Shown here: in pieces, positions 2,006 to 22,929 of the stretch
Position numbering within the stretch: position 1 is the stretch's first letter
How the letters are laid out: each line of letters opens with the position of its first letter
Assembly (NCBI RefSeq): GCF_002020135.1
Contig: NZ_MPZS01000001.1
Location: 434,001 to 498,000 of the forward strand
Length of the DNA stretch: 64,000 bases
DNA from: Thioclava marina
Lineage (GTDB): Bacteria; Pseudomonadota; Alphaproteobacteria; Rhodobacterales; Rhodobacteraceae
Direction of reading: 5' to 3'
Position numbers and translations under genes: made by a program
The notes under the pieces: generated by a model
Seen by the model: the letters and a program-made list of their open reading frames with translations, nothing else
Databases searched by the model: none
What the model was told of the DNA's origin: nothing

Positions 2006-2157
2006 ATCCAAAGCCCTCATGTCGCGCCCCGAAGGCAACGCGAACTTCTTGTAGCAAGTCTTTGGAAAGAGATGCTTTCCGCCGACGGTGAAGAGTGTCA
2101 CCACTGACGGAAATCCGCCTTGCCCGAGCGCCCCGCACAGGCAGAAAGGATGAGCGC

Positions 2158-2340
2158 CTCGGCAGGTCTCCTGGCTCGCGGGTCTCAACTCGGGCTGGCC
2201 TTCCCGGGATCTCCCAGTGGCTCAGTCAGCCTTCGCTCACCGCTCACAGTTGCGGGGGCAGCCCCGGAATGGATGCGCGACCTCGCCGCACGGCGCACCG
2301 GGTTCCCTTTTCATCCGCCTGAGGCGGAACCGAAGTGGGG
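2158..2340 (-). promoter_or_regulatory. Cobalamin (AdoCbl) riboswitch in the btuB leader
   Basis: On the minus strand the 3' signature AGCCAGGAGACCTGCC (2161-2176) and the 5' signature GATGAAAAGGGAACCCGGTG (2299-2318) are both present about 140 bases apart, with a GGTTCCGCC...GGCGGA hairpin just before the latter. These are hallmark blocks of the B12 riboswitch class. It ends about 155 bases before the btuB ATG, leaving room for an expression platform. Known members turn expression off when adenosylcobalamin is abundant. Confidence 0.95.
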
Positions 2341-2378
2341 CCGATGTGCCGCGCAGGGCCGCATCTGTCAAGAAAAAT

Positions 2379-5224: not shown

Positions 5225-5238
5225 TTGATCTGGATCAA
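5225..5238. promoter_or_regulatory. FNR/FnrL-type box upstream of cytochrome c peroxidase
   Basis: TTGATCTGGATCAA is a perfect match to the FNR consensus TTGAT-N4-ATCAA. It lies 65 bases before the peroxidase start and in the divergent intergenic region with speB. Oxygen-limited activation of the peroxidase by FnrL is the likely role. Confidence 0.8.
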
Positions 5239-5302: not shown

Positions 5303-6361
5303 ATGAAAAGGATACTGGTTACCGCTCTTGCCGCCTCGACGGCGCTTGCGGCACCCGCTCTCGCCGATGATGCGGCACTTCGTGAACAGGCCAGAGAGAT
5401 GTTCGAAGCGATCCCGCTTCAGCCCCCCATGCTTGAGGATAACGTGATCTCGCGTGACCGCGTCGATCTGGGCAAGGCGCTGTTCTTCGACCCGCGCATG
5501 TCGCGCTCGGGGCTGTTCTCGTGCCAGTCGTGCCACAATGTCGGCATCGGCGGCGTCGACGGTCTCGAGACCTCGATCGGCCATGGCTGGCAGAAGGGCC
5601 CGCGCAACGCGCCGACCATGCTCAACGCCGTGTTCAACGTGGCGCAGTTCTGGGACGGGCGCGCACCCGATCTCGAAGCCCAGGCCAAGGGGCCGGTGCA
5701 GGCCGGCGTGGAGATGAACAACACGCCCGATAACCTCGTCGCGACGCTGAAATCGATGCCGGCCTATGTCGCGTCGTTCCAGACCTCTTTCCCCGGCGAG
5801 GACGACCCCGTGACCTTCGACAACTTCGCGAAAGCGATCGAAGCCTTCGAGGCCACACTGATCACCCCGAACTCTCCTTTCGACAAGTTCCTGATGGGAC
5901 AGGATGCGGCGCTAAGCGATCAGCAGAAGCGCGGCCTTGCCCTGTTCATGGATGAGGGCTGTGCGGCCTGTCACCAGGGGATCAATGTCGGCGGGCAGGA
6001 TTACTACCCGTTCGGCGTGGTCGAGAAACCCGGCGCGGACGTGCTGCCCGAGGGCGATCATGGCCGGTTCGCGGTCACCGAGACGGCCGACGACCAATAT
6101 GTCTTCCGCGCCGGCCCGCTGCGCAACATCGCGCTGACGGCCCCCTATTTCCACTCCGGCACGGTTTGGGAACTGCGCGACGCGGTGGCGATCATGGCGA
6201 CTTCGCAGCTCGGCTCCGAGCTCGACGACGCACAGATCGACGACATCACCGCCTTCCTCGAAGCCTTGACCGGCGAGCAGCCGCAGGTCGTTCACCCGAT
6301 CCTGCCGCCGCGCACGAAGGACACGCCCAAGCCCTACACGATGCTCACCGAGCAGAAGTGA
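5303..6361 (+). CDS. ccp: Di-haem cytochrome c peroxidase (MauG/CcpA family)
   Basis: A 352-residue periplasmic protein with a signal peptide (residues 1-21, ending ALA). It has two c-type haem sites, CQSCH at residues 74-78 and CAACH at 220-224, the spacing expected for bacterial di-haem peroxidases that reduce H2O2 to water using cytochrome c electrons. Conserved segments ALFFDPRMSRSG, PRNAPTMLNAVFN and GPLRNIALTAPYFHSG are those of the family. A strong ribosome site (GGAGG, 9-base spacing) supports the ATG at 5303. The upstream FNR-type box fits known oxygen-limited induction of such enzymes. The gene stands alone and is followed by a hairpin terminator. Confidence 0.95.
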   Translation: MKRILVTALAASTALAAPALADDAALREQAREMFEAIPLQPPMLEDNVISRDRVDLGKALFFDPRMSRSGLFSCQSCHNVGIGGVDGLETSIGHGWQKGPRNAPTMLNAVFNVAQFWDGRAPDLEAQAKGPVQAGVEMNNTPDNLVATLKSMPAYVASFQTSFPGEDDPVTFDNFAKAIEAFEATLITPNSPFDKFLMGQDAALSDQQKRGLALFMDEGCAACHQGINVGGQDYYPFGVVEKPGADVLPEGDHGRFAVTETADDQYVFRAGPLRNIALTAPYFHSGTVWELRDAVAIMATSQLGSELDDAQIDDITAFLEALTGEQPQVVHPILPPRTKDTPKPYTMLTEQK

Positions 6362-19388: not shown

Positions 19389-19931
19389 ATAGCCCGCAGA
19401 CCTCATAACGCCCCGCCGACCCGTGACACCGGACCTCGCGTGAACGGACGGATCCGCGCCCCTGAAATTCGCCTGATCGGGGCGGATGGCGAGAATGTCG
19501 GGGTTGTCTCTCCGCGCGATGCGATGGCCATGGCCGAGGAGGCCGGTCTCGATCTCGTGGAAATCTCGCCCAACGCAAATCCGCCGGTCTGCAAGATCAT
19601 GGATTTCGGCAAGTTCAAATACGAACAGCAGAAGCGTGAGGCCGAGGCCCGCAAGAAGCAGAAGATCATCGAGATCAAGGAAGTGAAATTCCGTCCCGGC
19701 ACGGATATTCACGACTACGAGGTCAAGATGAAGAACGTCATGAAATTCCTGACCAATGGCGACAAGGTGAAAGTCACCCTGCGCTTCCGTGGTCGCGAGA
19801 TGGCGCACCAGAATCTCGGGCTCGAGCTGCTCAACCGCGTGAAGGAAGACGTGGGCGAGGCTGGCAAGGTCGAGAGCATGCCCAAACTCGAAGGTCGCCA
19901 GATGGTGATGATGATCGCCCCGACCAAGTAA
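19389..19931 (+). CDS. infC: Translation initiation factor IF-3 with an AUA start codon
   Basis: IF-3 of 180 residues. The conserved body ([51 protein letters not shown]) is unmistakable. A GTG at 19440 would drop the typical alphaproteobacterial N-terminus. In frame upstream lie the codons for [16 protein letters not shown], preceded by ATA at 19389 with GAAGGA 8 bases before it and an in-frame stop at 19356. No ATG or TTG is available, so AUA is the likely initiator. Non-AUG starts of infC (AUU in E. coli) are the basis of IF-3 autoregulation, since IF-3 itself discriminates against them. A terminator follows; rpmI and rplT are not adjacent. Confidence 0.9.
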
Positions 19932-19955: not shown

Positions 19956-19987
19956 AAACCCTCCCCTCGCGGGAGGGTTTTGTTTTT
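19956..19987 (+). terminator. Rho-independent terminator of infC
   Basis: A 10-bp stem (AAACCCTCCC / GGGAGGGTTT) with a 5-base loop continues into TGTTTTTG, 25 bases after the infC stop. Confidence 0.9.
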
Positions 19988-20202
19988 GCGCGGTGATCCC
20001 ACGGATCCGCTCCCCGATTGAGTCCCGCGCTTGGGAGCCGAGCCCGGGTCACATCCACGCTTCCCCCAAAGAGAGCGTATTCGACGCGAAGGGTTGGCCG
20101 GAACGGCCGCGAACGGACCTGCGGAATAATGCGAAGAGCTCGGGCAGACGAAATGTCCACCCGAGGCCGGATTACGACCTTCACCACCAAATCCCGAACC
20201 CG

Positions 20203-20325
20203 GAAAATTAAAGCGCCGCGGGAGGGAGACCCGCGGCGCATTTTGGGGATAAGACGAGGGAGAACGTCTGATCCTCTGGTCGGGTTCCGGCGGCGGTGCC
20301 GCGTCAGGGAGATCAAGAACCCGAT
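20203..20325 (-). ncRNA. Candidate small RNA with three UCUCCCU motifs
   Basis: In a 600-base gene-free region the minus strand carries a terminator-like hairpin (GCGCCGCGGG / CCCGCGGCGC, 20213-20239) followed by TTTAATTTT. Its 7-base loop is exactly UCUCCCU. The same heptamer recurs upstream at complement(20257-20263) and complement(20306-20312). Such CU-rich, anti-Shine-Dalgarno motifs in loops are typical of alphaproteobacterial trans-acting sRNAs. A TATCAC -10-like element (20332-20337) and an FNR-type box centred 41.5 bases from the inferred start near 20325 make a plausible promoter. Both ends are inferred, no homology was tested, and plus-strand transcription is the alternative. Confidence 0.5.
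20211..20245 (-). terminator. Bidirectional-looking terminator hairpin
   Basis: A 10-bp GC-rich stem with a 7-base loop. Minus-strand tail TTTAATTTTCC, plus-strand tail ATTTTGG. It is the proposed 3' end of the candidate sRNA; it could alternatively end read-through from the glycosyltransferase fusion gene. Confidence 0.7.
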
Positions 20326-20359
20326 GCACATGTGATATGGGAGTATCCGCGTGCTGAAC

Positions 20360-20373
20360 TTGACTTAGGTCAA
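20360..20373. promoter_or_regulatory. FNR/DNR-type box upstream of the candidate sRNA
   Basis: TTGACTTAGGTCAA is a perfect palindrome of the FNR-superfamily type (TTGAC-N4-GTCAA variant). No protein gene starts on either side within 2 kb, which is why a non-coding target is suggested. Confidence 0.55.
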
Positions 20374-20527
20374 AACGGGCACTGGTTAAACTGCGACATG
20401 TTGTACACTGGGTCACGTTTTAGCCAGAAATCGGTGATGACCCCGTGAAAACAAGGGGTTTTTCAGCAAGCCGCCCGCGGCTTTTCAGGCTATCGCCGCC
20501 CATCTGCGACAACCCGCCGCAGGGGTG
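20374..20527. other. Rest of the intergenic region right of the FNR-type box
   Basis: No gene is recognised. A short hairpin AAGCCG-CCCG-CGGCTT at 20468-20483 lies about 45 bases past the stop of the minus-strand fusion gene and could be its terminator, although its T-run is poor. Confidence 0.4.
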
Positions 20528-22750
20528 TCACAGCTCGTGCAGGCCAAGCCGGATCGCCCGGTTGTCATTGCGCTTGAGAACCGACTCGCCCATGCGCCGG
20601 GCAAGCGTCTTGTGGCCCTTCGCGACCGCCCTCTGGAACAGCTCGCGCTGGTAGCGCGGGAAGTCGCGCCGGGCGCGCAGACGGCGGTGGAAATACGCTT
20701 CGGTGAGGCTGCCATCGAGGGCAGCCAGAAGGATCGGGCTCAGAAGCCCCATCTGGTGCAGCGACGACCCCAGCCGATGCCCCATCAGCGGTGTGCGCAG
20801 CTTCATCACGTTCGATCCGGTGAACCGGTCGACATGGCCCGCATCGAGCGGCTCGTAAGGATCGTAGAGAATCGTCACCTTGCGCGCCGCGTGGCTCGCC
20901 TGTGCCGCATCGCCGTATTTGCCCGAGAAATCCCGGTCCCAAGCCACCTTGTAGCGCGTCTCCCAGGGCACGATGGTCTTGTCGAGCGTCGACTGAGGCG
21001 AGATCGCCACCACATCCGCCCCCGGACAGGCCGCCGAGAAGGCGCAGGCCGCATAGCCGCCCATCGAGGCGCCGTAGAATACCACCCGCTTGAACTGTGC
21101 GAAGAAACCCTCGGCCGCGAGCCGGTCGAACTCGTCACTGACCCATGGGTCGCGATACCATGTCCAGCCGCCCGCCATCGCGCCCAGCATCGACCAGCCC
21201 TGTTTTTCTATGAACTCGAAGCCCCAGGGCCTGCGCGTATCGCGCTTGTTCATCGCGATATCGAGATTGTCGAAAGTCACGACCAGCGTGTCCTGCGCGC
21301 GCGGGATGTAGAGGAAGCTGTGCGCGCCGTTATCGGTGTAAAACCCGTCCTCGCCCGCAAGCTGCGTCGCGATCTCGGCCCAGCCGGGATCGCTCACCTG
21401 CTCGGCGGGCGGGTTCGGGGCAAAGGCGATGCGCATCTGTTTTCCGCCGCCGCCATCGCTGGATTCCTCGATGATCTCGCTCGTGCCGAGATCGCGCAGG
21501 AAGGGAAAGCTGCCCGAGCCCTTGCGCACATCCATCAGCATCTTGCTATCCGCATGAAGCGCCACCTCAAGAACGGACTTCAAATGCTTGACTTTGTTGA
21601 CGTCTCCAAAGCCAGAAAGGTTCAGGAGCAGATCGACGGGGCGCAGACCGGCGGCCTTTGCGACATAACGAATGCGCCCCGGATCGACCCCGTTCTCGGC
21701 CAGATAGGCGCGATAGCCTGAAACCCAATCGCTCTCGCTCTCGGGCCATTTTCCGTTCGGTTGCAGGTCGATCAGGGTGATATCGCAATCCCAGCGATCA
21801 TGGGCCGCGAGCACAAGCCCCGGCGAGGTGCCGCCCAGATCGGCAATGGAGGAGAGCTCGGAGATCCCCGCCTTCCCGACCAGCCCCAGATCCGCGCCCT
21901 TCTGTTCGAAGACCAGTTTCGCGCGCCCCTTGATCGGCGCGAACTCGGGCCGGATATCGTGCTTCTTCAAGAGCTTGTCGAAGAAACTTCCCGCACGCGG
22001 AATGCCGTTGAAACGCAGCCCGAGCTCGCGCTTGTTCGACGCCCACAGATGCAGCGCCGTTGTCGCCTCGGTCAGCTTCTCTTCGACCTTCGCCGCCTCG
22101 CGGATCATCATCGTACGCTCGCGGAAGGTGACCGGATAGAACGCCTCGAGCGGCTGCACCGTGTCATGCAGCCCGTGCTTTTCGACAAAATGCGAAATCA
22201 TCATCGGCCCCCAGACGCCCCAGGGCTGCTGGGTGACATGGACCGGATCGCCCGCCCGCGCCGCGGCGGCATAGTCTTCTCGCATCGCCGGTTTCAGGAA
22301 CGGCGGGATCGCATAACGATCCTCCATGAAGTCGATGATATCCTTGAGGATTTCACTGTCGGCAGGCAGCCCCAGAACGGCATTGTTCACGCGCTTGGAA
22401 TTGGGCAGCTCGTAGCCCATCACATAGTCGCTGTCATACTCCATGGGCCGCCAGCAATAGACATCCGTGTCGATCCAGATCAGCCCCGGGTTCTGCGCGA
22501 TCATGTGGATGCGGAAATAATCCGCAAAGAGCGCGAAACTGTCCTTCTTCTCGTATTTGATGAAATCGTCGGTATCGAGCACCTCGCGCCCGTCGCGCCG
22601 GATCACCCCCTCGGGCACGTTGGGGATGTCCTCATAGGAAAAGAGGGTGATCTTCTGGCCCGCATCGACGAAGCTTTTCAGGCAAAGCTGCTCCATCCAG
22701 CTCAGAGCACCGCCGATCCAAAGCGTGCCAACCTCGCGTTCCCGTGCCAT
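20528..22750 (-). CDS. Glycosyltransferase / methyltransferase-like / serine-hydrolase fusion
   Basis: A 740-residue soluble protein with three regions. Residues 1-250: a DXD glycosyltransferase (LWIGGALSWMEQLCLKSF at the start; the catalytic IWIDTDVYCW, DTD at 94-96) of the capsular/GT32-like type. Residues 290-440: a Rossmann-like segment (ELSSIADLGGTSPGLVLAA, DITLIDLQP, VDLLLNLSG) reminiscent of class I methyltransferases. Residues 480-740: an alpha/beta-hydrolase-like domain with nucleophile elbow FYGASMGGYAA (Ser562), a likely acid in LYDPYEPLD and a His in GHRLGSSLHQMG. The ATG at 22750 follows AGGGCAGGGC. The hydrolase domain is paralogous to the separate protein at 26586-27527. It is divergent from a family-2 glycosyltransferase, so a role in surface-glycan assembly or acyl modification is inferred. 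Confidence 0.75.
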   Translation of the reverse strand: MAREREVGTLWIGGALSWMEQLCLKSFVDAGQKITLFSYEDIPNVPEGVIRRDGREVLDTDDFIKYEKKDSFALFADYFRIHMIAQNPGLIWIDTDVYCWRPMEYDSDYVMGYELPNSKRVNNAVLGLPADSEILKDIIDFMEDRYAIPPFLKPAMREDYAAAARAGDPVHVTQQPWGVWGPMMISHFVEKHGLHDTVQPLEAFYPVTFRERTMMIREAAKVEEKLTEATTALHLWASNKRELGLRFNGIPRAGSFFDKLLKKHDIRPEFAPIKGRAKLVFEQKGADLGLVGKAGISELSSIADLGGTSPGLVLAAHDRWDCDITLIDLQPNGKWPESESDWVSGYRAYLAENGVDPGRIRYVAKAAGLRPVDLLLNLSGFGDVNKVKHLKSVLEVALHADSKMLMDVRKGSGSFPFLRDLGTSEIIEESSDGGGGKQMRIAFAPNPPAEQVSDPGWAEIATQLAGEDGFYTDNGAHSFLYIPRAQDTLVVTFDNLDIAMNKRDTRRPWGFEFIEKQGWSMLGAMAGGWTWYRDPWVSDEFDRLAAEGFFAQFKRVVFYGASMGGYAACAFSAACPGADVVAISPQSTLDKTIVPWETRYKVAWDRDFSGKYGDAAQASHAARKVTILYDPYEPLDAGHVDRFTGSNVMKLRTPLMGHRLGSSLHQMGLLSPILLAALDGSLTEAYFHRRLRARRDFPRYQRELFQRAVAKGHKTLARRMGESVLKRNDNRAIRLGLHEL

Positions 22751-22929
22751 GCCCTGCCCTTCGCCTCTCGCCGCGCGGCTTTGCCCGCGTGCGGCTTTTC
22801 CTTGGTTTTGCCGCATCCTGCCCGAGTGGATGCCCTTTTCCAATGGAAATCAGAGCCGTGAGCGCGCGCGGGCTTTCACGCGCTTGGGCCGACGTGCTAC
22901 CACGGCGCGACAGGCAGGCGAGGACCGAG

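Follow-up and report, generated by a model that had tools for sequence, protein, structure and literature searches.

Does the interval at 20203-20373 of this Thioclava marina contig encode a small RNA (sRNA) under oxygen control, and how might such an RNA act? A preliminary description of the window (the whole 64,000-nt stretch of DNA that was analysed) had read the site as an oxygen-responsive, trans-acting regulator that exposes three copies of the anti-Shine-Dalgarno (anti-SD) motif UCUCCCU. The interval separates the 3' end of a 771-aa open reading frame (ORF; 20528-22843, minus strand), the upstream neighbour, which has no Pfam match, from the convergent gene infC for translation initiation factor IF3 (19440-19931, plus strand; Pfam IF3_N and IF3_C), which serves here as context only. 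The element is read on the minus strand (20373-20203), and a DNA search found it as a single copy in the T. marina genome. The genus assignment is borne out by plasmid stretches from two same-genus genomes, which match plasmids of Thioclava electrotropha and T. nitratireducens at 100%. Its predicted RNA of ~120 nt spans 20204-20326 on the minus strand, the start being placed from the promoter and the end from the terminator.

At gathering thresholds, Rfam recognised only a cobalamin riboswitch (RF00174, 126.7 bits, 2144-2349, minus strand) and two tRNAs in the whole window. By eye, the plus strand was also seen to carry a terminator-like hairpin with a T-run at ~20440-20464, upstream of the sRNA promoter.

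The promoter and its geometry

An FNR/DNR-type box, TTGACCTAAGTCAA, lies on the minus strand at 20360-20373 with its centre at -41.5 from the predicted start, and the -10 element TATCAC (20333-20338, minus strand) begins 22 nt past it. Both had been placed there by the preliminary description, as had the three minus-strand copies of TCTCCCT and the 10-bp terminator stem, and all of these were recovered at the same positions. The class II spacing of the -10 element proved to be general: TA stands at exactly +22 nt in 27/27 members measured, against a TA dinucleotide frequency of 1.2% in the window. This set comprises 13 Thioclava loci and 14 others, among them two possible divergent members, L029 (G234) and L031 (G237); locus L030 (G246), whose FNR box and TA 22 nt further on were counted by eye, was left out of it. 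In the Thioclava genome G007 the 22-nt spacing is kept although the sequence in between has diverged, while the FNR box of L011 is degenerate (TTGTC).

A TTGAY-N4-RTCAA box near -41.5 with constant spacing to the -10 element is what is expected of class II FNR activation, and the available text of PMC5398030 reports sites at 41.5 bp in D. shibae. The same text describes the FnrL and Dnr/NnrR box types as overlapping. The regulator at the sRNA box is predicted to be FnrL or a Dnr/NnrR relative, between which the box cannot tell. Overall, the sequence comparison strongly supports the assignment of the predicted sRNA promoter to the FNR-superfamily class II type with invariant geometry.

Further upstream, a conserved element TGTCGCA (20392-20398, minus strand) precedes the FNR box by 18 nt, with its centre near -70. 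It is found 17-18 nt upstream of the box in 21/27 members, and a wider block beyond it is also conserved within Thioclava. We take TGTCGCA to resemble a PrrA/RegA half-site. The window holds a second FNR-type box, TTGATCTGGATCAA, at 5225-5238, ahead of the gene for a di-haem cytochrome c peroxidase (5303-6361; Pfam), and judging from this arrangement the gene is likely a member of an FNR-type regulon.

Fold, loop constraint and distribution

The three copies of TCTCCCT on the minus strand (20312-20306, 20263-20257 and 20229-20223) are the only ones on that strand of the window. The predicted 122-nt RNA has a folding energy of -55.1 kcal/mol (z = -5.5) and forms three hairpins on the minus strand. 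Hairpin 1 (20280-20324) encloses an inner hairpin and holds the first motif copy (20306-20312) in an internal loop, and hairpin 2 (20247-20274) presents copy 2 (20257-20263) in the loop UUCUCCCU. Hairpin 3 (20213-20239) is the intrinsic terminator, with a 10-bp stem and the 7-nt loop UCUCCCU, which is copy 3 (20223-20229); the U-tail UUUAAUUUU, an interrupted U-run, follows 3' of it at 20212-20204 (minus strand). The terminator's whole loop is therefore one of the copies in T. marina, as had been proposed. All three copies are unpaired, although the first sits in an internal loop and is not apical, which qualifies the earlier picture of three exposed loops.

None of 300 simulated windows held TCTCCCT three times within 90 nt of a single strand. 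However, 29 different 7-mers are tripled within 90 nt on the plus strand of the real window, against a simulated mean of 6.4, so little weight attaches to a tripled 7-mer as such, and the reality of the sRNA rests on conservation.

Covariation was analysed in an alignment of 16 diverse members (A4) after fitting to the structure of the model, a step that works in favour of that structure. In A4, 95.7% of cells are paired, compared with 40-52% in slid controls. Both-side changes occur in 12/25 pairs (shuffled mean 5.9) and in 35 cells (shuffled mean 8.8), and 0/500 shuffles were as high in either count; a first, unfitted alignment of 11 sequences had double changes in 9/25 pairs. Seven of the eight pairs in the hairpin 1 helix show both-side changes in A4, the helix of hairpin 2 covaries as well, and one inner pair of hairpin 3 alternates between C-G, U-A and A-U. 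Mean stem column identity is 78% for hairpin 1, 87% for hairpin 2 and 94% for hairpin 3; as the terminator stem is also highly conserved, it adds little to the contrast between loop and stem.

The loops behave differently from the stems. UCUCCC in loop 2 and the core CUCCC in loop 3 are each kept in 16/16 aligned members, and the columns of the loop 1 heptamer reach 75-100% identity, with two rows shifted there. Conservation of the heptamers, as originally suggested, thus holds for the CUCCC core and not for the full motif: the first base of loop 3 is C in half of the 16 members, those outside Thioclava, and CUCCC is absent from the terminator loop in two distant members, L050 and L054. In several non-Thioclava members the inner hairpin of hairpin 1 holds an additional CUCCC. 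The alignment strongly supports a model in which the C-rich loops are under constraint and the stems covary.

A DNA search found the sRNA in 13/16 Thioclava genomes, with no match in the other three. The copy in G007 has diverged nearly throughout, yet box, box-to--10 distance, CUCCC motifs and terminator are retained. Across the family, a pattern of an FNR box with two spaced CTCCC matched 14/394 genomes (13/393 genera), compared with 1/394 for the reversed pattern, and the 12 non-Thioclava matches, all of which were read, carry two or more CUCCC each in predicted hairpins that follow the box. With pattern matches in so few family genomes, the sRNA gene is either patchy or fast-diverging. Conservation of the motifs and the hairpin in relatives had been set beforehand as the test of the proposal, and the counts for Thioclava and for the genera, together with the covariation, show that it was passed. 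We consider it close to certain that a conserved sRNA gene with an FNR-type promoter is real.

Model searches added to this distribution. Model R1 at E up to 0.01 gave matches in 29/248 genomes, mostly generic GC-rich terminators; G000, G031, G061, G129, G027, G240, G220, G119 and G039 were retained as members on inspection, and G234 and G237 as the possible divergent members named above. Of 20 named phototroph genomes, model R2 matched 12 at E up to 1, and the only match inspected, in Gemmobacter aestuarii, coincides with a known member (L045). Cereibacter johrii had no R2 match at E up to 1. The pattern occurs at seven places in five Cereibacter genomes, none of them a three-loop RNA, and two have TA 22 nt past the box; since these unrelated boxes share the spacing, the +22 geometry shows an FNR-type promoter and not by itself this sRNA.

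Related arrangements were also noted. A locus in a Cereibacter-genus genome (L164 in G430, minus strand near 1500) combines a box and TA at +22 with a hairpin carrying one CUCCC. Two further loci, L023 (G221) and L211 (G013:C4:88147-88267), encode multi-hairpin RNAs with CUCCC-type motifs, where an FNR box was not found; these are apparently further anti-SD sRNAs under other control.

Mode of action, candidate targets and alternative readings

Our preferred reading, to which we assign a probability of about 0.74, is an FNR-type-driven, trans-acting sRNA of ~120 nt with redundant anti-SD CUCCC loops. Its gene, promoter geometry, structure and loop constraint are established by comparison, and we infer its expression, signal, pairing and targets. 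The gene would be a free-standing one of Thioclava and about a dozen other Rhodobacteraceae genera. From the promoter geometry, an FNR-type regulator in its active form (FnrL or a Dnr/NnrR relative) would bind at -41.5 and recruit RNA polymerase at low oxygen. The resulting RNA would leave CUCCC motifs unpaired in separate hairpins, three in number or, in some genera, four, and its third hairpin would double as the terminator. By analogy with NfeR1/ar14, each CUCCC may pair with a purine-rich SD of the AGGGAG type and block the translation start of several mRNAs, and the motifs would be redundant in this action. Trans-acting anti-SD action seems likely. As for the oxygen-responsive trans-acting regulator of the preliminary description, the dedicated sRNA gene, the FNR-type promoter and the constrained loops stand, and the remainder is consistent with our results.

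It is possible, if doubtful, that the sRNA is instead a strongly diverged member of the ar14 (NfeR1/CcsR) family that came under an FNR promoter and has the ordinary family function. No Rfam family reaches its threshold for the sRNA, and ar14 is the nearest: the full length of RF02344 (1-123 of 123) can be aligned with 20329-20208 at 31.5 bits (E between 1e-4 and 3e-4, for the short stretch), which is far under the gathering threshold of 58.8 bits. A genome-wide ar14 search gave weak matches at the sRNA loci of G001, G005 and G015 (27.8-30.6 bits), but the T. marina locus was not listed in this search, which covered whole genomes at E up to 0.1, and a scan of 18 member loci at E up to 1 recovered ar14 at three of them. 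The general plan is shared. The available text of PMC10746234 describes ar14 RNAs as three hairpins with redundant CCUCCUCCC anti-SD motifs, and folds and alignment likewise show three hairpins in the sRNA, each with an unpaired C-rich anti-SD motif. However, the ultraconserved CCUCCUCCC of ar14 is not found in the sRNA, where the motif is CUCCC with variable flanks, and hairpin 1 contains the extra inner hairpin.

Thioclava also owns a separate ar14-type tandem cluster, which counts against this alternative. The genome-wide ar14 search passed the cut-off in 12/21 genomes and gave four tandem sub-threshold matches in T. marina. These four ar14/CcsR-like matches form the cluster L209 (G000:C3:52411-52959, minus strand), with nine CCUCCUCCC motifs behind a DUF1127 gene (44.5 bits), and adjacent ar14/CcsR-type matches occur in other Thioclava genomes as well. 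This CCUCCUCCC cluster is of the CcsR/CIN1 type and is separate from the sRNA.

To gain insight into the targets that the preferred anti-SD sRNA could have, genomes were scanned for AGGGAGA 3-11 nt before ATG; the counts include a few double ATGs and, for T. marina and G031, the complement of the sRNA locus. The motif was found in this position 86 times in T. marina (reversed-pattern control 5), 46 times in G031 (control 2), 44 times in G027 (control 1) and 80 times in R. sphaeroides (control 5). The excess over the reversed pattern identifies AGGGAGA as a real SD form in T. marina. Because such SDs are equally common in R. sphaeroides and in the carriers, the counts give no hint of co-adaptation across the genome.

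ORFs of at least 50 aa behind AGGGAGA numbered 77 in T. marina, 40 in G031, 40 in G027 and 66 in R. sphaeroides. Between T. marina and G031, 11/77 genes match 9/40, comprising rpoH, msrB, a HIG1-type gene, a biotin-carboxylase subunit, a fasciclin, a metallo-hydrolase, proteins with weak DUF302 and DsrE matches and a 50-aa protein. The overlap of T. marina with the carrier G027 is limited to rpoH, etfB, an ABC binding protein and one distant paralogue, and that with R. sphaeroides to etfB and two distant paralogues. G027 and R. sphaeroides have three close genes and one distant gene in common, and G031 and R. sphaeroides have no common AGGGAGA gene. As G027 has about as many of these genes in common with R. 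sphaeroides as with T. marina, the G031 overlap may be due to relatedness, and the scan revealed no robust conserved regulon across the carriers T. marina, G031 and G027.

The only exact-motif gene in all three carriers is rpoH, with AGGGAGA 9-11 nt from ATG and an RpoH identity above the NCBIfam cut-off. AGGGAGA also precedes the oxidase genes ctaC and ctaE in T. marina and ctaD and ctaA in G031, all Pfam-confirmed, and nuoD (NCBIfam) is among the carrier genes. We claim no respiratory enrichment, since the R. sphaeroides list has ctaB.

It seems rather improbable that the sRNA mainly titrates RNA or protein, as a sponge for G-rich loops or a chaperone ligand, instead of blocking SDs. Repeated accessible motifs would suit this as well, and Caulobacter anti-SD sRNAs are described as pairing with a G/A-rich sRNA loop (PMC12559287, available text), but AGGGAGA is clearly an SD form in the T. 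marina genome.

There is little to recommend the idea that the conserved sequence is a cis element that serves infC or the minus-strand gene upstream, either as a shared terminator or by stabilising the transcript from its 3' UTR. Its intergenic position and strong terminal hairpin would fit, as would the presence of infC nearby in many genomes: infC is inside the fetched flank at 11/13 Thioclava loci and, outside Thioclava, near the sRNA in L017-L020 and partly in L051. Against this, the element is preceded by a promoter of invariant geometry that belongs to it, infC is served by a separate terminator-like hairpin at ~19958-19990 (by eye), and the surroundings differ in other genera. No infC match was present in the fetched 1.5-kb flanks of L045, L046, L049, L050, L054 and L021, and an XdhC/CoxI family gene (Pfam) is the neighbour in L049 and L021, which suggests that the sRNA gene was relocated in genera without nearby infC. 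Least plausible of all is a small mRNA or dual-function RNA, for although long minus-strand frames overlap the region, one- and two-base gaps and compensatory changes among relatives misfit a conserved frame.

Comparison with known sRNAs

FNR-controlled sRNAs are best known from enteric bacteria. FnrS of E. coli is a functional analogue of the sRNA proposed here, as it is activated by FNR and represses its targets under anoxia (mentioned in PMC4263372, available text); it was not among the Rfam matches of the sRNA at E up to 5. We advance only tentatively the idea that the sRNA is the Rhodobacteraceae counterpart of FnrS, induced by an FNR-type regulator, with three or four redundant anti-SD loops and a regulon coded by SD type. 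If it were, mRNAs with an AGGGAG(A) SD would be translated less as oxygen falls, and the candidate regulon would include ctaC and ctaE in Thioclava, ctaD and ctaA in another genus, and rpoH. With promoter geometry, covarying stems and nearly frozen loops all readable from sequence alone, the locus offers a clean case, and a system in which to ask whether one redundant-loop anti-SD RNA sorts mRNAs by SD type when oxygen drops. There are Thioclava isolates, from sea water and sediment, that are open to direct study.

The low-oxygen sRNAs of Rhodobacterales named in the available text of the sources are PcrZ, two FnrL ChIP targets that a 2014 publication calls uncharacterised, and those of Paracoccus surveys. 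For R. sphaeroides, 13 FnrL sites not upstream of annotated genes are given, two of them at sRNAs (PMC4263372). Among the matches listed in the FnrL, Rhodobacter and low-oxygen sRNA literature, none was recognised as this sRNA, and a literature search found no publication combining Thioclava and sRNA. PcrZ of R. sphaeroides resembles the sRNA in being oxygen-responsive and from the same order, and depends on PrrA and FnrL (PMC8139620, available text). Identity with PcrZ was suspected because PrrA and CrpK ChIP peaks near RSP_0820 overlap the PcrZ start (PMC4263372, available text). We rejected homology: the 136 nt from the published start (chr1 2,565,820) are free of CUCCC, an FNR box is missing at -41.5, and the R. 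sphaeroides FNR box at 2,566,006 is downstream of PcrZ. DenR (sRNA-29) was set aside by its description as an 84-nt antisense RNA with aerobic/low-N2O peak expression (PMC6686037, available text). Rfam scores to the sRNA were weak for sX13 of Xanthomonadaceae (24.2 vs 50 bits) and for suhB/mmgR (20 vs 41 bits).

CcsR1-4 of Rhodobacter sphaeroides (RF02791) share C-rich repeated loops with the sRNA and belong to the same bacterial order. They arise, however, by processing of a DUF1127 mRNA whose promoter is of the RpoHI/HII type (PMC10253847, available text), whereas the sRNA is free-standing with an FNR box and scores 13.3 vs 65.3 bits. In place of tandem copies downstream of DUF1127, it is single-copy beside infC and the 771-aa ORF.

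The closest likeness is to ar14/NfeR1 of Sinorhizobium meliloti, which has ~123 nt, three hairpins and a repeated C-rich anti-SD motif, with differing stems. NfeR1 is shown to silence ntrB via pairing at the ntrB start region (PMC10746234, available text). The two differ in the extra inner hairpin of the sRNA and in control, which is FNR-type for the sRNA and LsrB/NtrC for ar14/NfeR1. The best reading is that the sRNA, which falls outside ar14 by score and by motif but follows an ar14-like plan, is an FNR-driven variant of the multi-loop anti-SD sRNA type.
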